This document shows, one piece after another, positions 12,691 to 57,111 of a DNA stretch of 64,000 nucleotides. Numbering within the stretch: the first letter of the stretch is position 1; every line of letters starts with the position of its first letter. The notes under the pieces are model-generated. The model was not told where the DNA came from. It was given only the letters and a program-made list of their open reading frames with translations, and did no database searches. The DNA comes from Chrysophaeum taylorii (lineage: Eukaryota; Sar; Pelagophyceae; Pelagomonadales; Pelagomonadaceae), in assembly GCA_029834535.1 (NCBI GenBank), contig JAQMWT010000421.1, positions 141,098-205,097 of the forward strand. Direction: 5' to 3'. Position numbers and translations under genes: made by a program.

Positions 12691-12883
12691 TGGCGGCACA
12701 GAAAAAAAAAACCTTCCCGACCCCCGGGTGACAAAGGGGGTACTCACCGACTCGTCCTAGGCCTCACTGAACGAGGAAAACACGGACTCGGGGTCGGGTA
12801 TGCTCGCCACACACCTTGCTCACGCTCACCAAGCATCTCAACAAGATGGAGAGATGGTATATGATAGTGAGAATACAAGTACA
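12691..12883 (-). repeat. 3' LTR of retrotransposon 1
   Basis: Direct repeat of 19833-20052. The shared core includes tggcggcacag, an A-run, ttcccgacccccgggtgac and atggagagatggtatatga. On the minus strand it begins TGTACTTGTATTCTC and ends GCCGCCA, giving TG...CA ends. It is slightly shorter than the 5' copy because of small indels. Confidence 0.75.
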
Positions 12884-12886
12884 GGC

Positions 12887-13146
12887 CAGTAAGTTCACCT
12901 AGTCCCAATCTCTAACCCCAGTAAGTTCACCTGGTCCCAGTAAGTTCACCTGGTCAGTAAGTTCACTTAGTCCAAATCTCTAACCCCAGTAAGTTCGGCG
13001 TAAACCCACTCGTGCTCACACCCACTCCTTTGAGCTCGTCGCTCTCACCCCCGCCAATCCAAGCTGCTTTGATCCGCACGCGCCGCCAACCCTTGAGTTT
13101 ACTCTAAAAACCCCAGTAAGTTCACCTGGTCCCAGTAAGTTCACTT
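12887..13146. repeat. Short tandem/interspersed repeat cluster (CAGTAAGTTCACCTGGTCC)
   Basis: About seven imperfect copies of a roughly 19-21-bp unit (agtaagttcac with ctggtccc or cttagtcc) occur between 12888 and 13146, some tandem and some spaced by caatctctaacccc. They lie inside the retrotransposon next to the 3' LTR. The function is unknown. The unit contains GTAAGT but is not preceded by a usual exon end. Confidence 0.7.
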
Positions 13147-13176
13147 ACAGTGCGCGTGTAGACGCCGGGAGGGGGC

Positions 13177-13416
13177 TTATCGGTATTGCGCAGCACGTGT
13201 GGGGTAGGGTGGAGTCGCCGACTCAGAAGAGCATATCCTCGGGGTTGCCGATCGACAGAGAGCCACGTAGAGCTGGACGTGACAGAAGACGGGCTTGGGC
13301 AAGAGGACGCCGACCTCGCGGGGCGTCTGGCCCTGGCTCTTGTTGATCGTTTGGCGTCGGCGGGCCTTAAGGGATACAGGTTGGAGGAGCCTCGGTGACA
13401 CGACACGATCGATCAT
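13177..13416 (-). pseudogene. PIF1-like helicase C-terminal fragment (Helitron-type)
   Basis: A 79-codon minus-strand frame contains TINKSQGQT followed by [10 protein letters not shown] and [13 protein letters not shown]. These are the helicase motif V/VI region of PIF1 family enzymes (TINKAQGQT ... GQLYVALSR), which form the C-terminal half of Helitron Rep-helicases. Only this terminal piece is present, with no upstream Walker motifs. It begins where the RNase H frame of retrotransposon 1 ends, so it probably entered by insertion or recombination and replaced the integrase region. A host PIF1 fragment is the alternative. Confidence 0.7.
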
Positions 13417-13925
13417 GTATCTGGTACCGTTGCAGTGGCCGTGCGACGGGTCGAGGTTGCGAAGACTTTAAGCTCGCGATCAAAGTCAGCATGCCGTTGG
13501 TTGTCAGGGAGTCGAAAACTCGACTGTAAAGAGCGAGGCGTCGTCTTCCGACCCAACCTAGTCTGCCGAAAAGAACGAGGGAGTTCTTGGCACACTAGAT
13601 ACGCGTGGTTCAAGGGTTCACCAAACTCGTCCGTCTCGATGACATGATCTATAGGATTGCGAGAGAGACAGTCAGGGATGCTCATTCCCGGCGACTTCCC
13701 TGGCTTGTAACCCAATTCAGGATCAAAATTGGCGAGCCGCATCGCCCATCGAGCCAACTGCCCAGACGAGTCCTTCGCCTTTCGTAAAAAAGTCAAGTTG
13801 CCACGATCTGTTTCAAGGATCGTCTTGTGACCTTCGATGTAAGAGCGGAAATGCTCAAGAGAAAGAATAACTGCCAGGAGCTCTAGCCGGCGAGGCTCAT
13901 AGTTCCGCATCTCTTTCGGCACAGC
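13413..13925 (-). pseudogene. Retrotransposon 1 RNase H segment
   Basis: The frame continues that of the reverse transcriptase, separated only by one TGA at 13926-13928. Motifs: RRLELLAVILSLEHFRSYI, then ETDRGNLTFL and LARWAMRLANF, typical of Ty3/gypsy RNase H. The ending (about the last 30 codons) is unlike the second element, consistent with a junction to foreign sequence at about 13413. In the second element the codon at the TGA position is CGA, so the stop is a one-base CpG transition. Confidence 0.8.
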
Positions 13926-15842
13926 TCAGCTCCAATACTCAATTACTCGTTCCTCTCGTGTCACCTTGCCGGTTTCGTCCTTGATTTCCACGAGCTGAAA
14001 AAGATACGCACCCAGACCATCCTTGGAAGCATCCGAGCGGATCTGAAAGGGAAGATCGTAGTCAGGATGATAAACTCCACGAGAGTCCACCAAAGCTTCG
14101 ATGATCGTGTCCCATGCCGTTTGGCACTCAGGCGTCCACTCAAACTTAACGCCTTCAAGACACAATCGCCTAAGCGGCTCCACAATCTTCGAATGATTCT
14201 TCACATATCGGCGGCAATAGTTGCTCATACCAATGAAAGATCGAATCTGGGTCTTCGGGGGCGTATTGGGCAACGTACCGGGAATCGGCATCTGCTGCAA
14301 CGCTTCTAACGTCTTGGGATTCGGCTTCAAGCCTTCCGGAGTCGAAATATGTCCCAAAAACCCGATTTCATCCTTGAGGAGGTGGAACTTCGAAGTTCGT
14401 CCACTATATCCTCGCTGTGCTAAATGGCACATCACTTCAATCAAAACTTGTAAATGTCGATGGAGTTCATCCGATCCCAGCATAATATCGTCGACAAACG
14501 CGACCAAGTCCTTATACATCCATGTGGACAAATCGCTAGCCATCTGCTTACAAAAGAGAGCTCCTGCTGTTTTTGCTCCTAGAGGCAAGCGCAAGAAACT
14601 ATGGGCTCCAAGTGGACTAACCATCGTAACAGCGTCCTGGGCAGCGGCGTCCAAACGTAAGTTATGATAACCCCATCGAATATCAATACACGTCCGCCAA
14701 CGGCGCATGGCAAGAAAAGCCAAAGCATCATCTTGACGAATATTCGGCCAACTGTCATTGACCAGCTGATCATTGAGCTGACGCAAGTCAACGACAGCAC
14801 GAAAAGCATTCGACGTCCCGGCCTCGGCTCCCTTCTTAGGCAGCATCAGTACAGGGAATCCCCACGGGGAGTTCGCCGGTCGGGTGACTCCATCGCGACA
14901 CCACTCAGTGATCTGCTTTCTGAGACACTCGAGCTTTGCTGGCGTCAACCTATAAGGCGTCATCTTGATCGGTCGTGGGTTTGCGTCTTTAAAGCGTAGA
15001 GAAACCGGTGGCGAGTCCACGGGTCTCATAATCGGATCAAAGAAAGCCCACGCGTATTGCACGCAATGGCTCAACATCATCTTCGCATCATCATCCAGAT
15101 GCGGGTTGTCGGGAATTCCTATATCTCGAACAACCTTTTCAACTTCTTCCTTCGTCGGAATTACGACTTTCATCGCATCATTGTCCTTGACGTGCTCGGG
15201 AATCTGCGGTAACGGTACACCGTCCGCATCGCGCGGCGCATCCTTCCATGGCACATCGAACTTTTCTTCGTATTTGAACCTCACCTCAGGGTGGCTCTTA
15301 TTGATCTTTTCACCTTTGACGCGCACATTCGGCTCGCTCCTTACTTTCGGCTCCTGTTCAGGTTCAGGATCCGGCGGAACGTCCACTTTTGATTTTCGGG
15401 GGGGGGCAGCAGAAAAAGCATGAGCCGTCCCCGGCGCATCTGTTGGGAGCGGAAGCATAGGAACTTCTGGCGGTTCCCATCTAGTGGGATCCTGGAGATC
15501 ATCCTTTGACACCCACTTAACGACACGAGTACGCGTATTTAACAGCGGAATCTCTACGTGACGAAAGGTGGTGTCGGAGATTCGTAAATACTGCTCAAAG
15601 GATCGATCTGTCGGGCTCAACGCGGTCGGCAGGACTTCACCACTTTGGCCGGAACCTCTGGTCACGGATTTGTGCAGATCGACTGCTAAAATCGCAAGAG
15701 TATCTGGTGGGACGACAGATGCTAAATGTTTGAACGAATCTGTCTCAGACAAGCTAGCCCAATCATGATCCACCGGCATCGTGAGCAACTCGGCCGTCAT
15801 CTTGAGAGTCAAAGGCTGAGTGTCCGAGCGATGCGGTCCCAA
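13926..15842 (-). pseudogene. Retrotransposon 1 end of methyltransferase plus reverse transcriptase
   Basis: A 638-codon frame. It begins with the last methyltransferase motifs (PLTLKMTAELLTMP, then LASVVPPDTLAILAVDLH), passes a Pro/Glu-rich linker, and continues into a complete-looking Ty3/gypsy reverse transcriptase: FRAVVDLRQLND, DIRWGYHNLRL, SFLRLPLGAKTAGALFCKQM, the catalytic FVDDIM, IGFLGHISTPEGL and IRSFIGMSNYCRRY. The RNase H start (IRSDASKDGLGAYLFQ) follows, before the single stop described for the next segment. The catalytic Asp pair is intact. The element is still defective because gag-pol is interrupted elsewhere. Confidence 0.85.
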
Positions 15843-16530
15843 ACGAAGAGGAACCCGCGTAACGGTGTAAGCCGTATCTGTTGCTTCTCGGGACGAGCCA
15901 AGATTATTCAGCTGGAGAAGGTGGTGTTCATGAGCATAACCTAAAGCTGCAGCAAATTTTTTGTTGCATGTTCACACATGTCTTCGGAGCCTCTTGCAAG
16001 TGCAGTGGGTGACTGGAAACCAACAATCGCACGCGAGAGCTCATCAGAGTAGGTGTGATATCATGAAAATTGACGACGTACACGTAAGGGTGTAAACGCG
16101 CTATATACGAAATAATGGACGCCTCCTGTTCAATCAGCCACATCATGAAGCCAGCCATTTTGCACAGCTTCATCGTCCAGTTAGTGGCCGTAACACCCTT
16201 GCCAACATCTCTGGATGTCAAGTTGCAGAGTGCTGAATGAACGCAGGGCGGCGACGCTATACACATCGATGATGACCATTCCGCTTCAGGCAAATAAGCC
16301 TTGATCAACCGGAGGGTCGAGTCATATCGTCCACAGAGCGTGTGCTGGACCACAGGTATCTTCGGAATACTCTTCTGATGAACCTTGTTGGCAGCTGATG
16401 ACGAGCCAAGAGCAAGGACGACTCGAAACGACGTCCTGCACAACTCGTTCGCTCGTTGCAGTCCTAAAGTACTTCCTCCGGCGCCGCTGAAGCATCACAA
16501 CCTTGCGATGCGTGATCGGCACCCAGTGGA
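15690..16530 (-). pseudogene. Retrotransposon 1 C5 cytosine DNA methyltransferase domain
   Basis: Motif I reads CFSGAGGSTLGLQRANEL on the minus strand (near 16494-16441), motif II FRVVLALG, motif IV with the catalytic Cys ASPPCVHS, motif VI IEQEAS, motif VIII SSRVRLL, and motifs IX-X in the next frame (LTLKMTAELLTMP and VVPPDTLAILAV). This is the standard order of C5 methyltransferases. A one-base frame change occurs just before motif I (near 16497), and the frame also breaks between motif VIII and IX (near 15930), so this copy is not translatable as one piece. Catalytic Cys and Glu are both present. Confidence 0.85.
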
Positions 16531-16931
16531 CCTTTTCAAACCTTCGGCGAATTTCGCATTCTGTAACTTCTCGGCATTTCTTTTCCTCCTCGTCAGTTCG
16601 TCGGTCGAAATCGTCGTTACCGAGCGATTCTTGACGAGAATTCTTCTTCTTATCGGCAGAAGGAGACGCCTTCTGCACTGAGCTCAAAAGCATCAGTTCG
16701 GGAGCCGCATTGTCTTGAGTAAGATGGCTTGCGACCGAAACAGTGAATGATAGGTTAACTTGTTAGATTCGGCTTCACCATCCTTCGTTAAATCGTCGAC
16801 CGTCTCAGCATTCAGCTCGTCATCAAAACGAACAATATCGCCCAAAAGCAAGGACTTCACCTTGAGTGATCACGGTCGGCACATCCTGGGTAGAGGATAT
16901 CGCCACTCGAGCTGCGAACTTATCATGATCC

Positions 16932-18092
16932 TCAGGAGAAGAACACATTCCTTCGACTACCCCGAGTTATGAAAACTTGCCCAGTTTCCACGGGGTCTGA
17001 AAGAGCGACTGGCACGCAGTAGGTGCGCCCAGGCTCGACCTTCATCGTGCGCGCAGCATAGGCTATCACTTCATAGGCATCGCTGTTCGAACTTTGAGAA
17101 GGCGTAACTGGAGGAACTCCCCAAGTCGTCGAAGCTCCCGCTCGTTTCGGCGGTGGACGCTGGAGGTCTTCAATCTTGCACAAGCGAGCGTAGACTCGGT
17201 TCTCAACTGTGCTCGGGCTTTGTTGCATCGCATGGTGCTGTTGCCCATAAACCTGAACTACCACGGGATTGCTCTCGTCATAAGTTGTTCTGAACGTCAA
17301 AATCGGAGAATCTACTCGTCGATCCTGCACCTTTAACTTCTTGCGCCCGTAAGCGACTTGTGTGCGTAGAAACGCAATGCGATTCCGCGGGTAGTCCACT
17401 ATGGCTCCAAACACCCGAATATCGCGCGCTCCCAGCAAAAATAGATGATTAGTATCGGCCACAATAGCAACAACTGGAACGGCTACGTCGTCCGCAAGCG
17501 CAATCCGCAATGCGACCCATTTGTGGATAGTCGTTTTGTTCAATCCTGACCCATACAAAGTGCGCTCGACTGGAAGATCGCCCCGGTCAAGGATGATGCT
17601 ATCCTTTTCCAGTTTTTCAACCATCCCACGACAAATATAAGAGACATCAGCCATTCCATCCACGCCTAAAGTCGTTGCAAACTTCGGCCCGTCTCGTCGT
17701 CTATAAATATGACCAACTATAAACGTAAGGGTACCAGGGTCCAGGCAACCGATGGTGATGAGGTCTTGCTCGATCTTTTCCCCATCGCTCGGCGACAGTG
17801 CAGTGTGATGACATCGTATCTCCGGTTTCGCATCGCCCGGCATCTGCATCGTCACCGCTGCTATATCTGGCGTTCTACATCTCGCCGCTGAATCTATATT
17901 GGCGCTCGCCGCTTCGGTTGCTTCCTCATTCCCCAGTTTCGCTGACAACAAATTCTGACACTTCTCAATCGGAGGCACATATATCTCCTCCTTTATCTCT
18001 TCTGGTAATCGTCGTTTCTCGTCCATCAAATCGGACATTCCCGTCAACTTCTCCTCCATCGGCGCCGCTGTGGTCTGCTCTGCTGCGACCAA
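16932..18092 (-). pseudogene. Retrotransposon 1 retropepsin-like protease region
   Basis: A 386-codon frame. The core reads TLGVDGMADVSYI, followed by ERTLYGSGLNKTTIHKWVAL and LFLLGARDIRVFGAIVDYPR. The arrangement (active-site strand, then I/L-L-L-G-x-D/R-x-x-x-x-x-x-A-x-x-D-Y) is that of LTR-element aspartic proteases, but the usual D-[ST]-G-A is replaced by D-G-M-A. The second element has the same replacement (LDGMADSPYI). The C-terminal part has no recognised domain. An intact frame between gag and methyltransferase is not maintained in this copy. Confidence 0.7.
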
Positions 18093-18391
18093 AACTGTAT
18101 CGGCTAGAACATCGGCTAAAACGGCTAAAACGGTCTCGGGGGGCCCGTAGGAAAAGAAGACGTCGTCCCCGACGTCAACTCAAAAGGTCTAACGCCATCA
18201 TCGTGAACTGCCCTGCAAGACATGCACATTGACGAATGGGGGGACACTGGAACCTGCGGCATGGGTTCGTCGGTCTCCGAATCTGTGTCTTCCCAGTAGT
18301 GCGGAGAATCCCAAGTAGCATCTGACATTGCTTCCACATACGATGTAGAAGGCCACCGAACGACCCGAGCGTTGGTGGTATTTTGATCCTG

Positions 18392-19399
18392 TTACAAACG
18401 ATGGCTGCTCGTTACAGCGACATCGGCAACATCATCGGAGACTCGGGCAGGGCGCGCCGTCGGGTAAAAGACAACCCCCGACATTGGCGGCGCGTCGCAT
18501 AAAGATTGGAACGCGAAAGTTGCGCTCGAATGTCCCGAACTATCCTGATATCTGCCTCCGTCATACTCGTCATCGTAATGTCGATGACGTCGACGCCGGC
18601 GCGAATTGCGACTAGAGCTCCGGTGACGGCAAGGACTCGGGCTGCTTTGAGCAGTATGGGCTTTTCGATCAGGGCTCTGGCATCGATGTCGGCGTGACGA
18701 TCGTCTAGAAGGTGATCGTCCGTCTCGCTGTCGTGTAGAAAACGACGTAGTATCCTTGATGCCTCTGACCTCGCTCACCATGGTCGCCATTGTGGTTCCA
18801 AGATCGGTGAGGGCCGTTTGAATTTCATTAGAAGGCCCCGATCCGTGCGTGGCGTTCGCATGAGATGCATCATCACGCTTCGCCCAATCGGACCGCGATA
18901 TGGGCTGCTTCTTCTGCTTACGAATTCGCTTCCACATCGCACAGTAGTAACGATCCGGATCGCGGTTGCAAACTACGCGACTTCCGTGTTCATCTTCATC
19001 ATGGGTGGTCCAGAAGAACCCACAGTGCGGGCACGTTCTCTTGCCCCACAAAAAAGAATCTCGTAAGATCAGCGGATCCGTATTCCCAGACGGCTTATCC
19101 GCATCTTGCTTGCCAAAACGCTCAGCTAATCGTTCATTTTCGCGACGTCTCCGCTCGAGGTCTTCACGAAGTCGACTTCCGGCTGCAGATCCGCGCTCAA
19201 TAGTAACACGCTCGCCTCGGTCCGGAGTCGTTGGACTCAACGGCGAAAAAATGGCAGTATCCGGAGGCATATCAGGGGGCACGTCAGCAACGTCGACTGC
19301 CTCGGTCTCTCTTAATTCACCTTCCTCGCGGCCTATCTCAGGGGCGGCGGGAAGAACTGTAGGAGACTCTTCCTCACGCACGTCTGCGTTTATCTCCAT
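18392..19399 (-). pseudogene. Retrotransposon 1 gag-like protein
   Basis: A 335-codon ATG-initiated frame, the first after the 5' LTR. It has an acidic Pro/Glu-rich N terminus (about 1-60), a charged helix, then TCPHCGFFWTTHDEDEHGSR and a later CNRDPDRYYC, together a possible CxxC...C...C zinc-binding unit, and an Arg/Ser-rich tail (SPSRRSSRRHR and similar). It differs from gag of the second element, which has a classical retrotransposon gag core. It may be an accessory or recombined gag, and the position rather than homology supports the name. Confidence 0.5.
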
Positions 19400-19808
19400 A
19401 CTGTATCAAATATCGATCAAGAATCTCGAAACACGTCCGGATCCGATCATTCGAAGTAATTCACGTCGATTCCAACAACGCTATCTGTCGCCGAAAAAAC
19501 AGCACTCGCGGAATTCCAGTCCGCTGGCAATTCAAAAATGCCCGTGGGTAGCGATCCCACTCGCTAAACAGCATCCACCGTTCGGCTATACCAAAATCAA
19601 TTCCCGGGAGAATGCGCTGCGTTTTCCAACTCGCACGCGCGTTCGTCGTCACTCAGATCGTACGAACACAAACAACGTTCGCGTATATTCTCAACGCAAA
19701 CCGGTCCAATGGAACTCCGTGTGCTTGATCAGGGCGCACGTACAAATCCGGACCACGTAATACAACACGTACGGCAGCACTCGCTCGTAGGCGACCGATG
19801 TAGTCGCA

Positions 19809-19828
19809 CGATCTCATATCCTCCACCA
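19809..19828 (-). promoter_or_regulatory. Primer-binding site of retrotransposon 1
   Basis: Directly inside the 5' LTR the minus strand reads TGGTGGAGGATATGAGATCG. Its complement ends in ...CTCCACCA, as expected of a tRNA 3' end with CCA. The spacer to the LTR is 4 nt. I cannot name the tRNA. Confidence 0.55.
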
Positions 19829-19832
19829 CGTA

Positions 19833-20052
19833 TGGCGGCACAGAAAAAAAAACCTTCCCGACCCCCGGGTGACAAAGGGGGTACTCAACGACTCGTCCTA
19901 GACCTCACTGAACGAGGAAAACACGGACCCGGGGTCGGGTATGCTCGCCACACACCTTGCTCACGCTCACCAAGCCTTCAACATCACGCTCACCAAGCCT
20001 CTCAACAAGATGGAGAGATGGTATATGATAGTGAGAATACTACAAGAATACA
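19833..20052 (-). repeat. 5' LTR of retrotransposon 1
   Basis: Direct-repeat partner of 12691-12883, with small insertions (an extra caagccttcaacatcacgct segment near 19971-19990 and a longer outer end). Outer end on the minus strand TGTATTCTTGTAG, inner end GCCGCCA. Confidence 0.75.
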
Positions 20053-20169
20053 GCAAGAATGCTTCTCACAAGAGAGAGGTATGATGTCACTAAGAAGATA
20101 GGGAAAGGTGTCCCGTTGAACGGGTATCAAGTCTCGAGAGAGGGGGGGTAAGCCTTAGCGGTCAGGAGT

Positions 20170-20510
20170 TGCCGCCACAGCAGTAATGCCCATTTCCCCC
20201 ACTTGCCTGCCAGCCACCTGACTTACCCTGATTGTTGCCCTGGTATTGCCCTTGCACTTATGGGGGGGTGTCATCTTGACACCCTCACCTGCGCTTCTAC
20301 TGAACTGAACCCAATGTACCAGGCATTTGTATTGCTTTCATGCTGTCTTCTTGATATTACCCTCATTTGATTGTCCGATTTCGTGATGGCGTGAGGTATT
20401 ACGCTGAGATCGGGCGTGTGGTGGTTTCACCCGCGGTTCGGGTTGGGAGAAAGGGTTGTTGAGGCCCCTGGTCCGGCCAGGAGGGGCGGGTATCTGAGAA
20501 AACCACTACA
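20170..20510 (+). repeat. 5' LTR of retrotransposon 2
   Basis: Direct repeat of 29505-29835. Shared blocks include gcccatttcccccacttgcc, cttgacaccct, aatgtaccaggcatttgtat, attgtccgatttcgtgatgg and tatctgagaaaaccactaca. The exact 5' edge is unsure (20170 TGCCGCC or 20180) because the first bases differ from the 3' copy (TGTGGCAGTAA). Confidence 0.85.
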
Positions 20511-20511
20511 G

Positions 20512-20533
20512 TGGTCTCAGAAACGGGAATCGA
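20512..20533 (+). promoter_or_regulatory. Primer-binding site of retrotransposon 2
   Basis: One base after the 5' LTR the sequence reads TGGTCTCAGAAACGGGAATC. Its complement would be a tRNA 3' end ...CCCGTTTCTGAGACCA. It starts with TGG immediately inside the LTR, as expected of tRNA-primed elements. I cannot identify the tRNA. Confidence 0.6.
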
Positions 20534-20977
20534 TAGTCCAACTCCCGGACTATCGATCTCCTGTTTTTCGGCGGCGAGTCGGTTCGTAACGGTCGAGTGA
20601 GTGCGAAGCCGACGCATTTGTGGGTGAAGATCCAGAGGATCACGGGTACCGCCGCGGGGTTCATTTTACGTGATTCGGATCGAACGGGGAGCGGAGTCAC
20701 TACGACTCATTGAGGCAAACATCGTAAGACCTACGAGGCAAAGACAGAGTAAGACCTAACTTAGCTCGCGCGAGGCAGACCACCTCCCTGACGGCGAGCG
20801 ACAGCACCGGGAAGGCCGTCCATAGTCTTCACGCGCAAGGCAAATACTTCCGTAAGTCCAGCGCACCGGTACAGCGCGCAGTCAGACGGCTGCCGGCAAT
20901 TGTCGTCTGACGAAAAGAATACAACAAGTGAGTTGTGAGCGTCCGGATTAAGCCTATTATCCGGGCAAAGCGCGGTC

Positions 20978-23900
20978 ATGGCAGAGAGGCCAATGACAGA
21001 ACGACCGCAGTGGTTTCGGGACGCACAGGAGCGTCTGCAACGATTCAGTGCAGGGACTCCATTTGCGTCTATTGGAAGAACACCGTTCAGTACGCCCTTT
21101 CAACGGCCGGAAGCCGAGGAAAGCGGCATCGGAAGAGAGGCAAGATCATCTGATAGCCTCGACAGCCCCCCAAGCGTGGTCATCCTTCCGGATCCACGCG
21201 CCGGCGAAGGGGGAGCTACGGTTGCGCCAGACGCAACTTCAAGACCGGGTGAGCCGACGTTCCCGTACGCACGACCCTACGAACGTGCGATGAATGCTAC
21301 GGAGTCATCTCGAGCGGAACCCGGACCGTTTACGGCGATGCGTGGACCAGAGGAGAGTGCACCTCCTAGGCCACCATCTGCGAATACGAGAGCGACAGAT
21401 TTTCGCGTGGATGTCGACCCCGAGGTTCTGCAGACCATCGCCGAACGATTCGAGATGTACCAGTCGCAGATCGAGCAAGTCATACGTGAACTTGAGAGCA
21501 CCCGCCGCGACGCTCAACAACAACGCTCAGAAGTGGAGCGGCAGCGGATCGACAACGATCGACTTCGACGAATGGTGGAGGAATCCATGCGGGCGCATGC
21601 TCGAGAGGCACGGCCAACCTCTCCGGATGCTACTCGTGTTACGCCCGACGATGATGACGCTGTATCGGCACTGACCGATGATCAGCCACCGCGAAGTCGA
21701 CCGGAGCCTACCCCGCACCATCATACTGACCCCGGTTCGGCGCGTCTTCGTGACGAAGAAGAGATACTTCATGTCAAGAAGGGAGCTGCTGGTATGACAC
21801 GTATCACGTTTTCGAATCTCACTGGGCAAATTACTAAGGACCGTGATGAGGTGGACGCGTGGTGGATGCAGTTGCGGCGTATGATGGAAGGCAAGATTGG
21901 TAAACCCTCAATAGCGATGAACGTGATTGGAGGCGAGTATCAACTCGCCACTATGGAAGCTTATCGCAAATGGGAAGCTGAACGGCCGCAGATGTGGAAA
22001 CAATACAAGGATAGGACCATCACACTGAGAGAGTTGCGCCAGCATGATGATGACTGTCTGGATGCTATGCAAGAGGCGACGAAGCTTCCTTGTCCACCTC
22101 GGGCTACGGTTGAGGAGCTTGAACGTGAATGGTTCAATTTACGGCAAGGGAATTTGTCATTGAATAAGTATATCGCGCGATGGGTGCAGAAATTCGGCCA
22201 GTGGAGAGCAATGTCAGGTCGCGATACTGATCCGGCTGCGTTCCGTTCGCACTTCATTGCTGGGCTCAATTCTGAGCGCTTGCGGACGAGCGTCGAACTT
22301 GCTCAGGCCTCACCGCATATGAAAGCATCTACTCTCACCCTCAACGATGTCATTCAATTGACCATCCAGATTTCCAAGATTCTGGAAGCCAACCCTACTG
22401 CCAACATCGAAGAGGCGATTAAGAAGGAGAAGGGAAAGGAGCGCGCACCACGGATGAGGAGAGAGCAGCAGCAGCAGAGGCAGCAGTTGCAGCCAGTCCA
22501 ACGGGTTGGTTATGTTACTGACTCGGGAGTTGGAACCTGGCTACCACAGGGGATAGATAACCATACGCGTCAAGCAATTACGACGTGCCTCAGTTGCGGC
22601 CGGCATGGTAGTTTTAACCACGACAACGGTGTGTGTCCTGTGCCGGACAATCCCTCGAGGAAGAGGCGTGCTGCTCAGACGTTGACGAATGCGGGTTTTC
22701 CAGCAACGCCAGAGGGACAGGAGCAATACCGACGGACGCTTTTAGCTGCAGCAGGACAGGCTTCAGTGACTCAGCTAGCGCCGCGCGTTGTGCAACAGCC
22801 GCAGGTGGTCTACACAGCAGCACAGGTGCCAGGTGCAGGTCAACAGCAGCTGGTTGCAGGCACTCAACAGCGTTTGGTTGCAGGCATTCAACAGCCGGTG
22901 GTCCGAAGGCAGCCCGCAGTGCAGCGGACCGCTCAGACCTCGGTGCGCCTGGAGGATCTGACTACGACTCTCAACACGATGAACTTGATTCGTCAGGCAC
23001 AGCAGACGGCTCCACCGGTTAGAGAGCAACAGTCTCAGAGAGCGAACCCTAGCCAGCGCAATGATGGTGTCGCCGCTCCGTGGCTTGAAGTGCTTGGCGA
23101 AGATCAGGATGACACTAAGCGAGCGGACTACTGCACTGTGCAGTATTCTGAGCTCATGGAGGGCAACGTGTATGACGATGACGATGTTGGGGGCGATGAT
23201 GATAGCTTCTCTGCAGAAGGCTATTTCCCTGGTGACCCCATGGAACCTCCTTCCTTTTTGGTCATCACTGAAGATGCATGGGTGGAGGAGCAGGAGCAAA
23301 GTACCGAAGTGACTGGAGTAGCAGCTAGAGTTCTCTCGGAGGACGAAGATAATCGTGACGAATTGGGGTATACGATTGTTCGTGTGGGACAAGATACCTT
23401 GGTTGCCATGGATATAGTGCCACCGAGGGACGACTGTGCCGAGCGCTATGCCGCTCACCCTTCCATCTCTTCGGATTTCGAGAGTTTCTGCCCTCAGACT
23501 GCGTTGAATACCACTCAGGATCCCGACCATCGTGAAAATAAAGCCGTAAGGTACGATGGCACGAGATCCGCCTCTTTGACGTATGTGCCTGTGGCTGTCT
23601 CTTCGCTAGATGGTTCGAAATATTCCATCATCGCTGCCGGTTTGGATGGCATGGCTGATTCCCCCTACATCGATCACCGCTTGTATCGCAAACTTGATCG
23701 TGACGGCAAAATCATCTATCGTCAGCCACTCCCTACGATTCGTACTCTAAATGGGTCAGGAGGTTCGGGAGCTGCTATTCGAGAATGGGTCATTCTCCGG
23801 ATCTCCTTGGTGCCGACGACATCCATGCTGCTCATGTTCTTCGTTGGTCAAACGAATGGGCAGTTACTATTAGGAGCACGAGAATTACGACTCTTGGGTA

Positions 23901-26386
23901 CGATTTTGGATTATGCGACAGAGAGAGCTATTTTTCGGCGTTCTGAAGTGACCATTGGAGTTCTCAAGAATCGGACTTCCGCCTCGCCACAAGACCAGCA
24001 TGGAATTGTCCTTTACAATGATGCATTCGATGCGACTCCGCAGGTAGTGCAGATGTTCCCGACAGCTAAGCTTGCTGTGCAATACGGAAATATCCAAACT
24101 TGGACGCCAGTTGGTAAACCGTGGAGTTATGACAGTCTACTGCGCTCTATTCGTATCAGAGCGAGTCACCATCACGTTCCTCCCGGTGATCAGACTGCTG
24201 AAAAAGCGGAAGACCAACTTAAATGCCCTGCAGACGAGGAAGATATCATCCCTCATTTCGCGTACGTGACGAGTACTCGATTTCTTCTTCCAAGCCAACC
24301 GTACTTCTTGGAGATGGAGTGCGATGTGCCGCTGGAAAAGGGTCACGTATTCCGACCTCATCGGTCACTCCTCCAAGATCTCCGCCTTGTACCTGGTTCC
24401 TATTCATCGTATTGCGCTGACGAGCCCAACGAAGTTCATGTGGCTGTGGAGCACATTGGTGACGAACCCATTGGTATCGACCCCGAAGTCCCGGTGGTCG
24501 AAGGCGAGATCATGCCGCATGAAGGATGTGTCAACATGCAGCTAGAAGCCACTGATGACGTGTGTCATGCAACTCTTACGGCTGCTGTTGACGACGATGA
24601 AGTCGAGGAGGATGTCTTGAGTGACAGACCTCCTCCTCAGCCACCTCCAGATGAAGAAGTGAAAAAAACACCAGAAATGGAGATGGAGGCGACTGCTAAG
24701 GAGCTGCTATCTAAGCACGCCTCCTTGGTTTGGATACCCATCACCTACACCTTTGTCGTCGTCTACTTTGCTGGCGCTGGAGGATCAACGTTGGGTATCC
24801 GGCGATGCAATGAGCTATATGGCAGTTCATTTCGCATTGTCCTGGCTTTGGATGCTTGTCCTCAAGCCCGAGCCACCTTTGAGCTCAATTTTCCGAAGAT
24901 TCCCTATGTTTTGCATGAGTTGGGGAAATCTCATCGTCGTACATACGACTTGGTGTTGTCGTATTTACATTCAGATTTTTGGAAGCATTCTTATTTTCAC
25001 GCCAGTCCGCCGTGTATCTATGGGTCGACTGCCAATTTGCACTACAGGGACGCACGCAAGGGCGCTACTATTACTTCTTGGGTCCTGCGTCATTTCCGCA
25101 ACGCACCTTATGTGATTGGACGATGGACGCTCGAGCAGGAACCATCAGTGATCCCTTTTGTGCATCACCAATTTTATGTGCCGCGTATTGTCGATTTCTA
25201 TAGTATCACACCAGAGTTGCTGTGCTCGCGCACGCGCCTACTTGCGTGCAATGTTCGCTTGAACCTGCCGTTATTATCGCGTGTACCACCGAATTTAAGG
25301 GACCGTTTTGGGCCAGCGTTGGGATTTACAGGTGGTCACCCGCTCATTATAGTGAACAGTTTCTCATCTACGCGCCCGGCTATCGGCCCTGCCTTCACGG
25401 TGACGCGCAATAAGCTCCACCTAGGACCTCATTTCTCGAACACCCGTCCACTCACGTTGCAGATGCACCAGGAAATTATGACCGTTCCTGCTACGTGGCA
25501 ATGGGGTGCGACAGTTTCAGAGACAGCAGCTATGAAGATGCTTGGCAGTATGGTGCCACCCGCGACTATGACGCGGATTGCGCTAGCAGTGCACAATTCG
25601 TTTGACCCTTCACTTCGAAATTTGGGTAAGTTGCGGAATATTGCGACGACTACGCTAGCCCAACCTGATCACCATATTCTACGGTTTTCACCTTTTGCTG
25701 TAGAGTCGCGCATTCCAACGCTCGACCCTGCCACTCGAAGTGTGTCATGGATTGCGCCCGATGAACTCTATTCTCCTGCGAGTCCTGCACCATCAGCTGC
25801 TGCCCCCACCACCCCGCCACCACCTTCAGTTACATCGCCTGGGACGGCTTCATCTTTTGCAGGGGGCACCGTCGCCACTGCTGTTATGCAGAGCAACCAA
25901 GTCGACAACCAGCCCTCCGCAACTGCTGAAGAAGAAGGCACCGCGAAAGAGCGACCAGCGTATTTCAATAAGTACGACGTTCCGTGGGCGGACGCGCCTC
26001 ACGACGAACATGGTCAACCTTTACCGGTGATGCCTCCTCATTTAGCGGATCAGGAGAGCATGCAGGTCATCCCTCCGACCGTCGCGCAGGTCGAAGAGGT
26101 GATGACTGAATTGGGTATTACAGAGCATCCTGCTTTAGATGATGACGAGAAGCTGATGATGAAGCATTTAATCTCGTATTCGTGGGCATTTTTCGATGAT
26201 GTGATGAGACCTGTTGATTCACCTGAAGTGACGCTCCGGTTCAAAGAAGAGAACCCGACTCCCGTCAAACTCTCGCCATATCGGTTGTCGAAAGAAAAGA
26301 TTGAATGTTTGCGGATGCAGATTGAAGCATGGACCCGAGACGGAGTTATTCGTCCCGCGAATTTTCCGTATTTTGATGTTGCCTAA
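20978..26386 (+). CDS. Gag-protease-DNA methyltransferase-RT (N-terminal part) polyprotein
   Basis: 1802 open codons. Residues about 145-215 form a coiled coil. Residues about 270-480 are a retrotransposon gag core (WWMQLRRMMEG, ELEREWFNLRQGNLSLNKYI, FIAGLNSERL). A variant zinc knuckle CLSCGRHGSFNHDNGVC (CX2CX7HX4C) starts at 537. After a Gln-rich stretch, the retropepsin-like core is at about 880-1000 with LDGMADSPYI (Asp 890) and LLLGARELRLLGTILDY. Residues about 1250-1545 are a C5 methyltransferase (separate entry). From about 1720 the RT begins (AFFDDVMRPVDSPEVTLRF, PVKLSPYRLSKEKIECLRMQ) and is cut at 1802 by a frameshift inside the RPAN(S/F)P motif. Gag and Pol are in one frame with no visible stop or slippery site, so Gag excess must come from processing or another mechanism. 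Confidence 0.9.
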   Translation: MAERPMTERPQWFRDAQERLQRFSAGTPFASIGRTPFSTPFQRPEAEESGIGREARSSDSLDSPPSVVILPDPRAGEGGATVAPDATSRPGEPTFPYARPYERAMNATESSRAEPGPFTAMRGPEESAPPRPPSANTRATDFRVDVDPEVLQTIAERFEMYQSQIEQVIRELESTRRDAQQQRSEVERQRIDNDRLRRMVEESMRAHAREARPTSPDATRVTPDDDDAVSALTDDQPPRSRPEPTPHHHTDPGSARLRDEEEILHVKKGAAGMTRITFSNLTGQITKDRDEVDAWWMQLRRMMEGKIGKPSIAMNVIGGEYQLATMEAYRKWEAERPQMWKQYKDRTITLRELRQHDDDCLDAMQEATKLPCPPRATVEELEREWFNLRQGNLSLNKYIARWVQKFGQWRAMSGRDTDPAAFRSHFIAGLNSERLRTSVELAQASPHMKASTLTLNDVIQLTIQISKILEANPTANIEEAIKKEKGKERAPRMRREQQQQRQQLQPVQRVGYVTDSGVGTWLPQGIDNHTRQAITTCLSCGRHGSFNHDNGVCPVPDNPSRKRRAAQTLTNAGFPATPEGQEQYRRTLLAAAGQASVTQLAPRVVQQPQVVYTAAQVPGAGQQQLVAGTQQRLVAGIQQPVVRRQPAVQRTAQTSVRLEDLTTTLNTMNLIRQAQQTAPPVREQQSQRANPSQRNDGVAAPWLEVLGEDQDDTKRADYCTVQYSELMEGNVYDDDDVGGDDDSFSAEGYFPGDPMEPPSFLVITEDAWVEEQEQSTEVTGVAARVLSEDEDNRDELGYTIVRVGQDTLVAMDIVPPRDDCAERYAAHPSISSDFESFCPQTALNTTQDPDHRENKAVRYDGTRSASLTYVPVAVSSLDGSKYSIIAAGLDGMADSPYIDHRLYRKLDRDGKIIYRQPLPTIRTLNGSGGSGAAIREWVILRISLVPTTSMLLMFFVGQTNGQLLLGARELRLLGTILDYATERAIFRRSEVTIGVLKNRTSASPQDQHGIVLYNDAFDATPQVVQMFPTAKLAVQYGNIQTWTPVGKPWSYDSLLRSIRIRASHHHVPPGDQTAEKAEDQLKCPADEEDIIPHFAYVTSTRFLLPSQPYFLEMECDVPLEKGHVFRPHRSLLQDLRLVPGSYSSYCADEPNEVHVAVEHIGDEPIGIDPEVPVVEGEIMPHEGCVNMQLEATDDVCHATLTAAVDDDEVEEDVLSDRPPPQPPPDEEVKKTPEMEMEATAKELLSKHASLVWIPITYTFVVVYFAGAGGSTLGIRRCNELYGSSFRIVLALDACPQARATFELNFPKIPYVLHELGKSHRRTYDLVLSYLHSDFWKHSYFHASPPCIYGSTANLHYRDARKGATITSWVLRHFRNAPYVIGRWTLEQEPSVIPFVHHQFYVPRIVDFYSITPELLCSRTRLLACNVRLNLPLLSRVPPNLRDRFGPALGFTGGHPLIIVNSFSSTRPAIGPAFTVTRNKLHLGPHFSNTRPLTLQMHQEIMTVPATWQWGATVSETAAMKMLGSMVPPATMTRIALAVHNSFDPSLRNLGKLRNIATTTLAQPDHHILRFSPFAVESRIPTLDPATRSVSWIAPDELYSPASPAPSAAAPTTPPPPSVTSPGTASSFAGGTVATAVMQSNQVDNQPSATAEEEGTAKERPAYFNKYDVPWADAPHDEHGQPLPVMPPHLADQESMQVIPPTVAQVEEVMTELGITEHPALDDDEKLMMKHLISYSWAFFDDVMRPVDSPEVTLRFKEENPTPVKLSPYRLSKEKIECLRMQIEAWTRDGVIRPANFPYFDVA
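24725..25613 (+). other. C5 cytosine-specific DNA methyltransferase domain inside retrotransposon 2 Pol
   Basis: Residues about 1250-1545 of the polyprotein. Motif I VVVYFAGAGGSTLGIRRC (SAM-binding, from 1259), motif II IVLALDACPQARATFELNFP, motif IV HASPPCIYGS with catalytic Cys 1346, motif VI TLEQEPSV (catalytic Glu in an E-Q-E rather than E-N-V context), motif VIII CSRTRLLAC (Arg 1418 and 1420), then a short variable part of about 65 residues where the target-recognition domain sits. Motif IX RPLTLQMHQEIMTVP and motif X LGSMVPPATMTRIALAVH (from 1522) close the domain. All the key catalytic and cofactor motifs are in the right order in one open frame, so this copy could be active. It would methylate cytosine at C5. 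Its substrate (own cDNA, integration target or host chromatin) is unknown. Confidence 0.92.
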
Positions 26387-26391
26387 GAAAG

Positions 26392-27677
26392 GTGCTGAGC
26401 CTGGCACTTCCAATGCTGAGAGCAGCTGTCGACCTACGGCGCCTCAATGCATTGCTCAAGGATGATAGCTGGCCGAGTGTGAGCATGGCTGACGCGTTGA
26501 TGTTTCTCATCGACAAGTTTTGTCGTTCCAGTTTGGATATTCGTTGGGGCTATCACAATTTACGATTGTCGCTAGATGCACAAGATGTGGTCACCTTCAC
26601 TAGTCCTCTGGGAGCGTACAGCTACATGCGTCTACCTTTGGGAGTCAAACCAGCCGGAAGTTTGTTTTGCAAGCAGTTGAACACTGACTTGTCGCAATGG
26701 CTATATCGTGATCTCGTGGCATATATCGACGATATTCTCGCCGGTCACGCAGATACAAAGAATCACTTGCAGTGCCTTGTGCAAGTTATTCCCCATCTCG
26801 CCTTGAAGGGGTACAGCGCCAAGATCAAGAAGATTCATTTTATGCAAGAAGTCATTGAGTTTTTGGGTCATTTATCTACCCCGAACGGACTTCTTCCATC
26901 ACCAAGGTCTTTAGAAGCCATCAGACACATGCCAATTCCTGGCACTTTGTCGGATGCTGACCCTAAGAAGCAAGTGCGATCTTTCCTTGGAATGGGGAGT
27001 TTTTGCCGGCGTTATGTAAGGAATTTTGCGAAAGTTGCAGAGCCATTAAGACAACTGACGTTGCCGGACGTGAAATTCAAGTGGACGAAAGAGTGTCAGG
27101 AAGCTTGGGATGCCATCATCGAGGCTATTGTCACTTCGAAGGGCGTCTATCATCCTGATTACTCGTTACCTTTTTACATTCGAACTGATGCTTCCGCGCA
27201 TGGGTTGGGTGCTTACCTATTTCAAAAGTACCAGTCGTTGACGACGATGGAAGAGAAAGAATCGAAGAGAGAGTTATCGAGTACTGGAGTCGAACCGTGC
27301 CTAAGTCGATGAGGAAGTACGATCCTCGGCGCTTGGAACTCCTCGCAGTACTCTCTGCTCTCGAAAATTTCCGATTTTATATCGAAGGTCATCAGACGAA
27401 GTTAGAGACGGATCATCGTAATTTAACGTTTCTGCGGGATTCGAATCATACGTCTGGACAGTTAGCACGATGGGCTATGCGGCTTGCTGCGTTCGACCGG
27501 GAGCTCGGATACAAGCCTGGAAGCTCCCCTGGCATGCGTATTCCGGATTGTCTGTCGCGCAACCCTATCGACAAATTGATCGAGAAAGATGAAGACGGGG
27601 AACCGATCAATGAAGCTTTTTTTTTCCAAATCCCCACCCCCACCGACAGCTTGCTTCACTTCTCTTCTCTTCGGTGA
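26392..27677 (+). pseudogene. Retrotransposon 2 reverse transcriptase and RNase H, frameshifted
   Basis: RT motifs follow in order: RAAVDLRRLNALL, LDIRWGYHNLRL, SYMRLPLGVKPAGSLFCKQL, catalytic AYIDDILAG, IEFLGHLSTPNGLLPS and VRSFLGMGSFCRRY. The RNase H start IRTDASAHGLGAYLFQ follows. Frame changes occur near 26360-26430 (two, around MLPKKGAEPG) and near 27235. After the latter, RNase H continues as RRLELLAVLSALENFRFYI, KLETDHRNLTFL and LARWAMRLAAFDRELGY up to about 27677. Active-site residues look intact, so the defects are indels rather than loss of the active site. Confidence 0.88.
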
Positions 27678-27911
27678 CGATGCCTACCTGACGGACAGCG
27701 GACCCACCGCAGCTAGTAGCAGTTAGTACGCGACAGAACGTACAGCCAATTCTCGAACGAGTCTTGACTCCGATCAAGCGGAGGATCGGAGGATGAGATA
27801 GCGAAAGATAGCGAAAGAACAAGCTGAGGATGAAACATCAGACGAAAGCTCGACTCTGAACAGAAAGATCAAGACGAGCAGTCATCCGTACCATATGAGG
27901 TTGATGACAAC

Positions 27912-29469
27912 GTGTTGTATAGGTCGATGATTCAGATTCTCAACGTCTTATTGTGGTCCCTCAGTCTCCAGAAGCGTGTGATCGCCATGCATCACCGAGG
28001 ATTGTTCGGAGGCCATGTAGGACGAGACTCCACAGCGAATCAAATCTTAGAACGGTATTGGTGGCCAAACGTCTCATCATCAGTTAATGAGTTCGTCAAT
28101 GCCTGCATTATTTGCCAGAAGATTCGATCCACCATGCCTACGTCATGGCTTGCTCTGTCAACCGAATCGCGTCGGAGATTGCTATGTCCTAGGTATGGAT
28201 TTGATTGGACCTCTGCGAGGCGCTGACCTGTACACGTACATACTCGCAATGTACGATGCAGCATCGCATTTCTTGAAATTAGCTCTGATCAACACAAAAC
28301 ATGACTATTCGATTTTGAACGCGTTTGTGGACAAGATTTTACTTGAGGGATGTCTCCCACGGTGCATAGTCACGGATAATGGAAATGAGTTCGCGAACAG
28401 GTTATTTCGCACGTTTGTTCGTCAATTCAACGTACGTTATCGTACTACCCTTCCGTATCACCCTCAGAGTAATCATACTGAGCGTGTCAATCGATTCATC
28501 AAAGCCTTCTTGCGAGCTGCGATCGATGAACAGCGTCAGCCAGATTGGTCGAATTTCCTCCCATATGTGTCATTCATGTACAATAGGATGTACATTCCGG
28601 GAACGAAGATTTCACCTTTCATGATGCGTACTGGCAAGCAACCCCTGTTACCACCCGATTACAATCTTTTGAGTGAACAGCGTGATCTACCGCAATCACG
28701 TCATCAGATTTTGGTGGACTTTAAGAACAAGTTTGAATTTTATAGTCGACTCGTTACACGAGCTCACCAGAAAGCACAGGAGAGTCAAAAACTCAACTAT
28801 GATGCCCACCAAATTGACATCCAGTTTTCCCCAGGTGATTATGTTCTGCGTTTCGTGCCTAAGACACGCCACAAGCTACGGCCCATTTGGCGCGGACCTT
28901 ACATGGTTACTAGAAAGATCTCTCCCGTCGTTTATGAAATTCAAGACGTCAACGACGATCATGCTGAATCGGTTGTAGTATCTGTACAACAGATTCTGCC
29001 TTTGAAAGTGCCAAACATCGACTCTTCTTCAGCCCCTCTGCATTTACCTTCGGACCGCGACCGGTTCAAACATGGTAAGTTCGTGATTTTCAGGGTGAAA
29101 GGACGATCCAATGCGTGGAAGAAGCGTATCTATGTTGCCGAAGTCTACGAAGAATATGACCACGACAATGATACAGTTGCGCTTCACTACTATACCGATT
29201 TGGGACCGCGCGATGATCCTCGCGTCTTTGATCCTACTAAGCCTCTGGCTGAGCGACGCTTAAGACCAGAATACAAAGATGCGGACGGAGGTAGCTTCAC
29301 ATGCCTACGACCCAACATGGAGGGCTGTGAACCCTGTGTGACTGATTTTCGCCCGGATGAAATCGATGTCCTCGTCACTAACTTCGGTCTCCACAGCAAC
29401 AAAGTTCCTGCTGATGTAGCTGAACGAGCTTATCGTACCATTCGTGAGCGTGACCTTTGTCACCCTTGA
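27912..29469 (+). pseudogene. Retrotransposon 2 integrase with GPY/F and extra C-terminal domain
   Basis: The zinc-binding HHCC unit is in one frame (MHHRGLFGGHVG ... ACIICQKIR, about 27980-28130). The frame then changes near 28120. The catalytic core follows in the 28087-29469 frame: YVLGMDLIGPLRG (D), CIVTDNGNEFANRLF (D) and NHTERVNRFIKAFLRA (E), a complete DDE set. Next come the GPY/F module (LRPIWRGPYMVTRK, VVYEIQDV) and, after a linker, about 140 residues with GKFVIFRVKG, IYVAEVYEEYDHD and VALHYYTDLG. The last segment looks like a small beta-barrel reader (chromo, Tudor or BAH-like), but I cannot name it. The region 27680-27911 between RNase H and integrase is degraded. Confidence 0.88.
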
Positions 29470-29504
29470 AGTCGAGGACGACTTCATCTCAAGTAGGGGG
29501 CTCC

Positions 29505-29835
29505 TGTGGCAGTAACGCCCATTTCCCCCACTTGCCTGCCTGCCACCTGGCTTACCCTGATTGTTGCCCTGGGTTTGCCCTTGCACTTATGGGGGGGGTG
29601 TCATCTTGACACCCTTACCAACGCTTCCACTGAGCCCAATGTACCAGGCATTTGTATTGCTTCCTTGCTGTCTTTTTGATATTACCCTCAGTTGATTGTC
29701 CGATTTCGTGATGGAGTGAGGTATTACGCTGAGATCGGGCGGGTGGTGGTTTCACCCGCGGTTCGGGTTGGGAGAAAGGGTTGTTGAGGCCCCTTGTCCG
29801 GCCAGGAGGGGCGGGTATCTGAGAAAACCACTACA
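29505..29835 (+). repeat. 3' LTR of retrotransposon 2
   Basis: Starts TGTGGCAGTAACGCCC directly after ggggctcc, ends ...ACCACTACA. It is co-linear with 20170-20510 with scattered differences (for example cttaccctgattgttgccct shared, then ggg versus ggt). Confidence 0.88.
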
Positions 29836-37649: not shown

Positions 37650-37908
37650 CAGGGTCGGATAAGAAAGTTCGTACGAGCCGTTAACTATGTTTCAGTTTGT
37701 ACTAAGACATACTCAACGGATCGCTGAGCTATGTTCATTTGTACTCAAGCAGTATGTGCCGCCACGCCGCGAGATCGTCGCGATGGAACTAGTCCCCATA
37801 GTGAAGTCGGCATCCTTTCGTCCCCTCACGCAAAAAAAGGAAAAAGCCCACGCGTTGTAGGACCCGTCGTTGCGGCGCGGGCTAGTCTCGTTTTCTTATC
37901 CGACCCTA
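37650..37908 (+). mobile_element. MITE copy A (259 bp, hAT-like termini)
   Basis: Terminal inverted repeats CAGGGTCGGATAAGAAA ... TTTCTTATCCGACCCTA. The insertion is flanked by a 7-bp direct repeat CCGTGGA (37643-37649 and 37909-37915). The interior has no coding capacity. A nearly identical copy lies inverted at 56852-57111. CAGGG ends and a 7-8-bp target duplication point to the hAT superfamily. That assignment is inference. Confidence 0.85.
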
Positions 37909-40109: not shown

Positions 40110-40186
40110 AAGCCGAGTTCTTATCTGAGAATTAATTAATTTATTTAATTAATTAATTATATAATAATAATTAAATAATATATAAT
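40110..40186. repeat. AT-rich TTAATTAA tract at copia insertion site
   Basis: A run of taattaatt and ataataat units, far more AT rich than the surroundings. It ends in the TATAA that was duplicated on insertion of the copia element. Confidence 0.8.
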
Positions 40187-56851: not shown

Positions 56852-57111
56852 TAGGGTCGGATAAGAAAACGAGACTAGCCCGCGCCGCAACGACGGGTCC
56901 TACAACGCGTGGGCTTTTCCCTTTTTTTTGCGTGAGGGGGCGAAAGGATGCCGACTTCACTATGGGGACTAGTTCCATCGCGACGATCTCGCGGCGTGGC
57001 GGCACATACTGCTTGAGTACAAATGAACATAGCTCAGCGATCCGTTGAGTATGTCTTAGTACAAACTGAAACATAGTTAACGGCTCGTACGAACTTTCTT
57101 ATCCGACCCTG
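56852..57111 (-). mobile_element. MITE copy B (260 bp)
   Basis: Inverted and nearly identical copy of 37650-37908, with the same TIRs (TAGGGTCGGATAAGAAAA ... TTTCTTATCCGACCCTG). Differences are a couple of bases around the A/T-run and the cccctcacg segment. Flanks do not show the 7-bp duplication seen at copy A; a TGCTA pair overlaps the terminal bases instead. Confidence 0.85.

Follow-up and report, generated by a model that had tools for sequence, protein, structure and literature searches.

Cytosine-C5 DNA methyltransferases (C5 MTases) carried by retroelements have been described in LINE and DIRS elements of Symbiodinium and in Gypsy elements of Klebsormidium nitens, where they evolve under purifying selection (PMC5890265). 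In that description SymbioDIRS-Dnmt3 methylates CG sites de novo in yeast and the SymbioLINE DNMTs form an orphan lineage, and streptophytes and dinoflagellates are also described as having members of DNMT3 in elements of the LTR Copia and DIRS kinds (PMC12344493). Retrotransposons encoding Dam or Dcm are stated to occur in stramenopiles and red algae too (PMC6338049); because this statement covers the two kinds together, without separating them, a stramenopile case may be not wholly unforeseen. An N4/N6-type methylase is described in an Ectocarpus DNA transposon (PMC12477816). In the open-access literature searched, we found no alga with a red-type plastid for which Ty3 or copia elements had been reported to carry C5 MTases. 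Here we describe A1, a Ty3/gypsy-type long terminal repeat (LTR) retrotransposon in a 64,000-nucleotide stretch of DNA (the window; contig C421, 141098-205097, of a 70.8-Mb assembly of 697 contigs), which carries a C5 MTase domain between its protease (PR) and its reverse transcriptase (RT).

The MTase domain (24725..25613, + strand) spans motifs I-X and lies within an open frame of 1802 codons (20978..26386, +). An earlier note on this DNA had listed seven C5 motifs, in canonical order, in this frame, and every one was found: FAGAGGSTLG (24767-24796), LALDACPQARATF (24842-24880), ASPPC of motif IV with the presumed catalytic Cys 1346 (25001..25015, +), LEQEP (25130-25144), SRTRL (25226-25240), RPLTLQMHQEIM (25445-25480) and GSMVPPATM (25544-25570). 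A regular expression for this order, composed after the motifs had been seen, matched once in the window and in none of 100 codon shuffles. The profile search against the DNA methylase family that the note had set as a test also bore it out. PF00145 (DNA_methylase; curated cut-off 22 bits) scored 33 bits on the whole frame (E 5.5e-8) and 38.3 bits on the domain alone (E 1.3e-9; the candidate METHYLTRANSFERASE in question), as well as 30.8 bits on the related subfamily A2; it was not listed for P0001, a more distant relative described below. PHROG 116 'DNA methyltransferase' matched at E 1.8e-11, and NCBIfam dcm, at 22.5 bits, fell far under its cut-off of 100.65.

Alignment to ordinary enzymes points the same way. 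A profile of six family members, compared by hhalign with three phage MTases and the DNMT2 of the host, aligned over columns 37-314, motifs I-X, with a probability of 96.9% (E 1.6e-10). In the resulting ten rows (six retroelement MTases, three phage MTases and the host DNMT2; domain numbering), G42, G44, G45, P120, P121, C122, E162, R194, R196 and P304 are invariant, which covers the glycines of motif I, the PPC cysteine of motif IV, the glutamate of motif VI, the RxR of motif VIII and motif X. Motif IV of P0001 reads SPSC, with the cysteine retained. These comparisons of sequence confirm that the domain between PR and RT belongs to the C5 MTase family, with the predicted catalytic motifs present.

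The surrounding element reads as Ty3/gypsy. A1 extends from about 20176 to 29835 on the + strand. Its 5' LTR (20176..20510, +; start uncertain by 4 bases) opens with CACAGCAGTAA and the other LTRs with TGTGGCAGTAA; the 3' LTR (TGTGGCAGTAA ... CCACTACA; ~29505..29835, +) differs from it at 17 of 325 aligned bases (K = 0.054), and the two are ordinary direct repeats. A candidate primer-binding site, TGGTCTCAGAAACGGGAA (20512..20529, +), begins with TGG one base past the 5' LTR, and the same sequence follows the LTR of subfamily A2 (L055). The order RT, RNase H, integrase, with an RVT_1-type RT, is found in the window frames and in L071, a copy of subfamily A4. Upstream of the MTase, the 1802-codon frame contains a gag region (Retrotrans_gag 13.5 bits, below cut-off), a zinc-knuckle-like CLSCGRHGSFNHDNGVC (22586-22636, +) and a protease-like core; downstream of it come a linker and the start of RT. 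RT and the start of RNase H are located at 26392..27312 (+; RVT_1 49.5 bits, RT_RNaseH_2 49.6 bits), and the integrase, with its rve core and C-terminal domain, occupies a separate open reading frame (ORF) at 28087..29469 (+; Integrase_p58_C 27.9 bits; rve 32.6 bits, exactly at its cut-off of 32.6).

Some claims of the earlier note stood only in part. The retropepsin-like core is present upstream of the MTase (active-site region GLDGMADSPYID, 23639..23674, +), but it reads D-G-M, not D-T/S-G, in A1, A2, A3 and A4; P0001 has VDTGACRSFID, with D-T-G, at the equivalent relative place, and the 1802-codon frame has no Pfam protease match. The MTase frame does lead into the start of the RT region, but past codon ~1792 RT sits in a different frame, and because of this break we regard the window copy as decayed. 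'Complete' is thus apt for the motif set, but not for motif VI, which is E-Q, nor for the frame-broken pol of this copy. Of the 29 other A1 loci, 12 have the RT motif YIDDI in frame with the MTase, and in L055 and L057 the frame is continuous from the MTase through YIDDI. L057 has TG...CA LTR ends and a 4-bp GGTC at both ends, read by eye; no target-site duplication is evident at the ends of the window copy.

The domain is widespread in the genome. That of A1 matches at least 128 stretches on many contigs, from 99% identity downwards (best 120 of 922 candidates scored); such counts are of matching stretches, not elements, and some elements yield two. Subfamily A2 (L055, contig C225) is 82.7% identical to A1 and has a single 2129-codon frame from gag to RNase H. 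The window itself holds a second MTase, absent from the earlier note, in the neighboring element A3 (12703..20057, -), which is likewise of Ty3 type, belongs to the same MTase-bearing clade and is flanked by direct repeats, 98% and 88% identical, that are probably LTR parts. The A3 MTase (15666..16594, -) is split into three segments in three reading frames, is 37-45% identical to that of A1 (E 1e-54) and has the same place in the element, with FSGAGGSTLG at 16462-16491, ASPPC at 16243-16257, IEQEA at 16120-16134 and the SRVRL region at 16024-16041 (all -). The RT of A3 (13995..14804, -) is 60% identical to that of A1, and its protease-side region (16971..17822, -; GVDGMADVSYI at 17634-17666) 28%. 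At least 150 genome stretches match the A3 MTase (best 150 of 808 candidates scored), and among the matches listed is the A4 type, 81-82% identical. The A4 copy L071 (723-9923, contig C5) is one open frame of 3067 codons with a protease-like core, MTase, RT, RNase H and integrase (RVT_1 2001-2165, RNase H 2235-2372, H2C2 2556-2614, rve 2632-2725). The long N-terminal part of L071 has no Pfam match above cut-off.

Beyond this genome, a search of 5.8 billion proteins returned a sole relative, P0001, an ENA protein of 2160 amino acids (aa) that is 28% identical, contains RVT_1 and has the MTase at the same place between PR and RT. The MTase domain alone as query found no relative in the protein search, and among 5430 candidate proteins there was no relative outside retroelements at E 0.01. 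A search of viral contigs for MTase relatives gave only an ordinary phage MTase, and one of GTDB contigs gave none. A near-identical P0001 in the genome was not matched at E 1e-300, an empty answer that is uninformative.

The order PR, MTase, RT is thus common to A1, A2, A3, A4 and P0001, and the best explanation is that the MTase was acquired before the Ty3/gypsy lineage split into the subfamilies seen here. The partnership of element and MTase looks old, because the MTase has stayed conserved between subfamilies with RTs that are 39-53% different. The earlier note had put a C5 MTase domain between the PR and RT regions of a Ty3-type element and had allowed that the junctions might be an assembly chimera; the placement holds on PF00145, on hhalign and on junctions that recur in independent copies, and the chimera was rejected, since the 29 A1 loci that were compared have the MTase together with adjoining PR and/or RT sequence. 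As to loss of the MTase, 100 of 129 RT matches are at least 78% identical, and by eye about 28 of those 100 had no MTase partner among the matches listed; one of these 28, L076, does have an MTase, in two frame pieces. Six of the 29 A1 copies (L029, L032, L034, L037, L043 and L047) share a deletion that joins window positions 21897 and 24500 (2613 bp by coordinate subtraction), with most of gag and PR gone and the MTase and RT kept; the frame crosses the junction in four of the six. Splicing was rejected as the cause of this deletion, whose ends lie at a GAAGGC(A/G)AGAT repeat and not at GT-AG. The six copies look like descendants of one event that kept multiplying, possibly a non-autonomous derivative.

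Codon comparisons indicate that the domain has been kept by selection. Between A1 and A2 the ratio of nonsynonymous to synonymous substitution (dN/dS) is 0.06 in the MTase (dS 1.54), 0.02 in RT, 0.18 on the PR side and 0.20 in the linker; between A3 (L069) and A4 (L071) it is 0.053 in the MTase (dS 2.17), 0.156 on the PR side and 0.337 in the linker (81 codons), RT giving no value with just 2 comparable codons. These ratios are approximate because dS is near or above saturation. Within A1, 29 copies compared with the window gave a pooled pN/pS, the corresponding ratio for differences between copies, of 0.18 in the MTase; the pooled values of 0.69, 0.35 and 0.47 in other A1 regions are not a fair comparison, because copies that have deletions or insertions in those regions inflate them. 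Over the 296 MTase codons, 20 of the 29 copies are free of stops and the other nine have one stop each; a gapped codon occurs in two copies and is absent from 27. Of 30 distinct copies, 25 retain every one of the 13 motif residues chosen (26 of 31 rows, since L057 and L023 are one locus), a retention that by itself is not above chance given a protein divergence of ~3%. Together, these comparisons show purifying selection acting on the predicted MTase.

A further MTase-like domain, also absent from the earlier note, occurs in a second kind of element. Family B, a Ty1/copia family, accounts for most of the remaining PF00145 matches in the genome; it was read from nine of the loci retrieved (L003, L005, L011-L013, L016-L018 and L020; the others were L004, L006-L010, L014, L015 and L019). 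Its order is gag, a DGGA protease-like core, the PF00145 domain (32.3 bits; motifs LPCQ and ENVPPN), integrase and copia-type RT; examples are L056 (4897-9990) and L075 (3-872, contig C96). RVT_2 lies downstream of the integrase, as in copia elements (138 bits in L075), and in L056 rve, at 17.5 bits (below the cut-off of 32.6), lies upstream of RVT_2. One 208-bp repeat, 89% identical, is a probable LTR. Between the MTase-like domain and the integrase lie ~400 residues without an assigned function. The MTase stretch matches at least 96 places in the genome (best 91 of 701 candidates scored), and dN/dS (L056 vs L065) is 0.093 in PR, 0.114 in the MTase and 0.096 in the following domain. No similarity was found between the MTases of families A and B (BLASTP E 0.58; hhalign 0.12%), and family B as query had no relatives in the protein search. 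Against ordinary MTases hhalign aligned it partially, over motifs IV-VIII only (21.7% probability, E 0.00099). Family B thus carries an apparently unrelated C5-MTase-like domain. The repeated capture at one position, beside the protease, argues for a real selective use.

How distinct the A enzymes are is seen in a PDB profile search that, with E allowed up to 10, yielded just 5 sequences. Two bacterial enzymes led, the first at E 0.011, and DNMT2 chains (E 0.45-1.4) came after them. No DNMT1 or DNMT3 chain was among them; an ordinary phage MTase, as a yardstick, reaches E 9e-40 in the same library. Because no DNMT3 chain was among these PDB matches, an origin separate from DNMT3 is tentatively favored, and of the two possibilities in the earlier note, an independent or a transferred case, the independent one. 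The nearest described system is KnitGypsy-Dnmt3, which likewise has a C5 MTase in a Gypsy Pol, many intronless copies and purifying selection; its MTase is described as Dnmt3-related and its repeats as DIRS-like (PMC5890265), whereas the MTase family here has no DNMT3 chain among its PDB matches up to E = 10 and the A1 LTRs are direct repeats. As with SymbioDIRS-Dnmt3 and SymbioLINE-Dnmt, there are hundreds of retroelement C5 MTases in one alga, and the SymbioDIRS MTases share an ORF with RT as here; the Symbiodinium elements are described as tyrosine-recombinase or LINE elements (PMC5890265), in contrast to the DDE-integrase Ty3 and copia elements of this genome. Like the domain of family B, the C5 MTases of PMC12344493 lie in copia-type elements, and they are described as DNMT3. 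Dam-like N6-adenine MTases of DIRS elements are also DNA methylases in a retroelement polyprotein (PMC5890265), but they are structurally unrelated to the A1 MTase and act on another base. By analogy, the A1 MTase may work as the retroelement-borne DNMTs of PMC5890265 do.

The host appears to have a maintenance-type enzyme of its own. A 103.6-kb plastid contig (C697) carries rbcL (488 aa) next to rbcS, a Rubisco that we take to be red-type, form ID; the host plastid, so read, differs from that of the KnitGypsy-Dnmt3 host, a charophyte. The host is thus photosynthetic, and a stramenopile affiliation is plausible. PF00145 scores highest in the genome on a protein of 360 aa that has DNMT2 as its closest counterpart (PDB 1g55, E 4e-39) and a long DNMT5-related frame that matches PDB 7r76 (E 3e-143), a chain named DNA repair protein Rad8 and presumably Cryptococcus Dnmt5; the other 55 matches score at most 46 bits. 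These two are the only full-length C5 MTases outside retroelements that surfaced among the best candidates scored, and further host DNMTs may have been missed because PF00145 was searched exon by exon. DNMT5a is reported in pelagophytes, dictyochophytes and diatoms, and DNMT1 is described as scarce in microeukaryotes (PMC9998398).

Our favored reading, to which we give a probability of roughly 0.55, is that this Ty3/gypsy lineage carries in its Gag-Pol an MTase that is packaged and methylates the element's own complementary DNA (cDNA), with the mark kept by DNMT5. The MTase is likely packaged with RT in the particle, because both are made in one polyprotein. There it would methylate cytosines of the double-stranded cDNA before or at integration, and the host DNMT5-type enzyme would then maintain the mark; a new copy would therefore already carry the marks of host-like or silent chromatin on arrival. 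The benefit would most likely be escape from host sensing of naked cDNA, or a limit to host damage. Because evolution kept the MTase sequence, the elements may mark DNA themselves. Homology over motifs I-X, the place shared by the subfamilies, the low dN/dS, the stop-free MTase in most A1 copies, the host DNMT5 relative and the de novo CG methylation that SymbioDIRS-type enzymes achieve in yeast (PMC5890265) all speak for this self-marking.

Several points weigh against it. Motif VI is E-Q in A1-A4 and P0001, not the E-N dipeptide that is canonical for C5 MTases; the domain is far from known enzymes, as its best PDB match shows; and the A4 relative L071 scores only 18.9 bits with PF00145, under the cut-off of 22. 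An AlphaFold2 model of the MTase was unusable (predicted local distance difference test, pLDDT, 37.7; predicted template modeling score, pTM, 0.27). To the saturated dS is added the choice of copies, A1 by MTase similarity and A2 and A4 for long open frames, which favors intact domains. The copies show no clear CpG decay, and long-lasting methylation of them at CpG gains no support from it: across 30 copies aligned over 1671 bases, singleton transitions fell on 34 of 233 CG, 16 of 157 CHG and 56 of 464 CHH sites (0.118 per site at A/T), with CG at 34/233 versus 72/621 for other C/G sites (p = 0.24). Hence the copies were not long CG-methylated, or deamination was well repaired, or the sample was too small. 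With KnitGypsy-Dnmt3, the closest case in a Ty3 element, no methylation was seen in yeast, a result its authors call inconclusive (PMC5890265). The substrate of the MTase could also be RNA or host DNA.

If host DNA is the main substrate, MTase produced by the many copies would methylate it de novo and DNMT5 would maintain the result, so that host defense or gene expression shifts to the element's advantage. This is unlikely in our judgment, even though the three MTase families are present in very many copies, DNMT2 and the DNMT5 relative are the only host enzymes that surfaced, and such an effect is discussed for Symbiodinium (PMC5890265). The exon-by-exon search leaves room for other host DNMTs, and CpG is not depleted in the window flanks (observed/expected 1.23 and 1.36, with 1.04 in the element and 1.33 in A4). 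The two LTRs of the window copy have lower values, 0.51 and 0.49, from which we draw nothing because the LTRs of L055 (0.84) and L057 (0.79) are higher.

We also doubt that the domain kept its fold for nucleic-acid binding or a structural role, or that it methylates RNA in the manner of DNMT2, and not DNA. The E-Q of motif VI, the distance from DNA MTases and the DNMT2 chains among the weak PDB matches would fit such a role, and RNA methylation has been raised for SymbioLINE (PMC5890265). Against it speak the motif I glycines, motif IV PPC, motif VI glutamate and motif VIII RxR, which are invariant between A1-A4 and ordinary enzymes, and the cysteine that P0001 retains in SPSC. A functionless MTase, there as an accidental passenger or through chimeric assembly, is highly improbable and already disfavored: the stops in nine of 29 A1 copies and the broken frames of both the window copy and A3 would suit such a view, but dN/dS is 0.05-0.06 in two independent pairs, the order PR, MTase, RT recurs on many contigs and in P0001 from another organism or sample, and the deletion in six of 29 copies took most of gag and PR and spared the MTase and RT.

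Elsewhere in the window, a 1670-aa ORF (32521-37533, -) is probably a host gene; it contains leucine-rich repeats (LRR_4, 36.9 bits) and an IQ motif that matches weakly. Inverted repeats at 37650-37908 and 56852-57111, 98-99% complementary and ~19 kb apart, and a 97-bp direct repeat whose copies at 40186 and 44573 are identical make other mobile elements likely.

We conclude that the MTase-bearing elements are real and conserved, span several families and exemplify a known phenomenon, here with both the setting and the enzyme lineage new and with a mechanism that we infer. The enzyme is far more divergent than the retroelement DNMTs known from dinoflagellates and the charophyte (PMC5890265, as described there). 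A broader possibility, which we hold to be distinctly unlikely, is that Ty3 and copia elements independently captured C5 MTases of different lineages and supply de novo methylation that the host DNMT5-type enzyme keeps; if true, it would reveal, for one lineage, the source of new methylation in hosts of the DNMT5 type. With its DNMT5-type host, the alga offers a testable system for the origin of de novo methylation and for what a transposon may gain from marking its own DNA.

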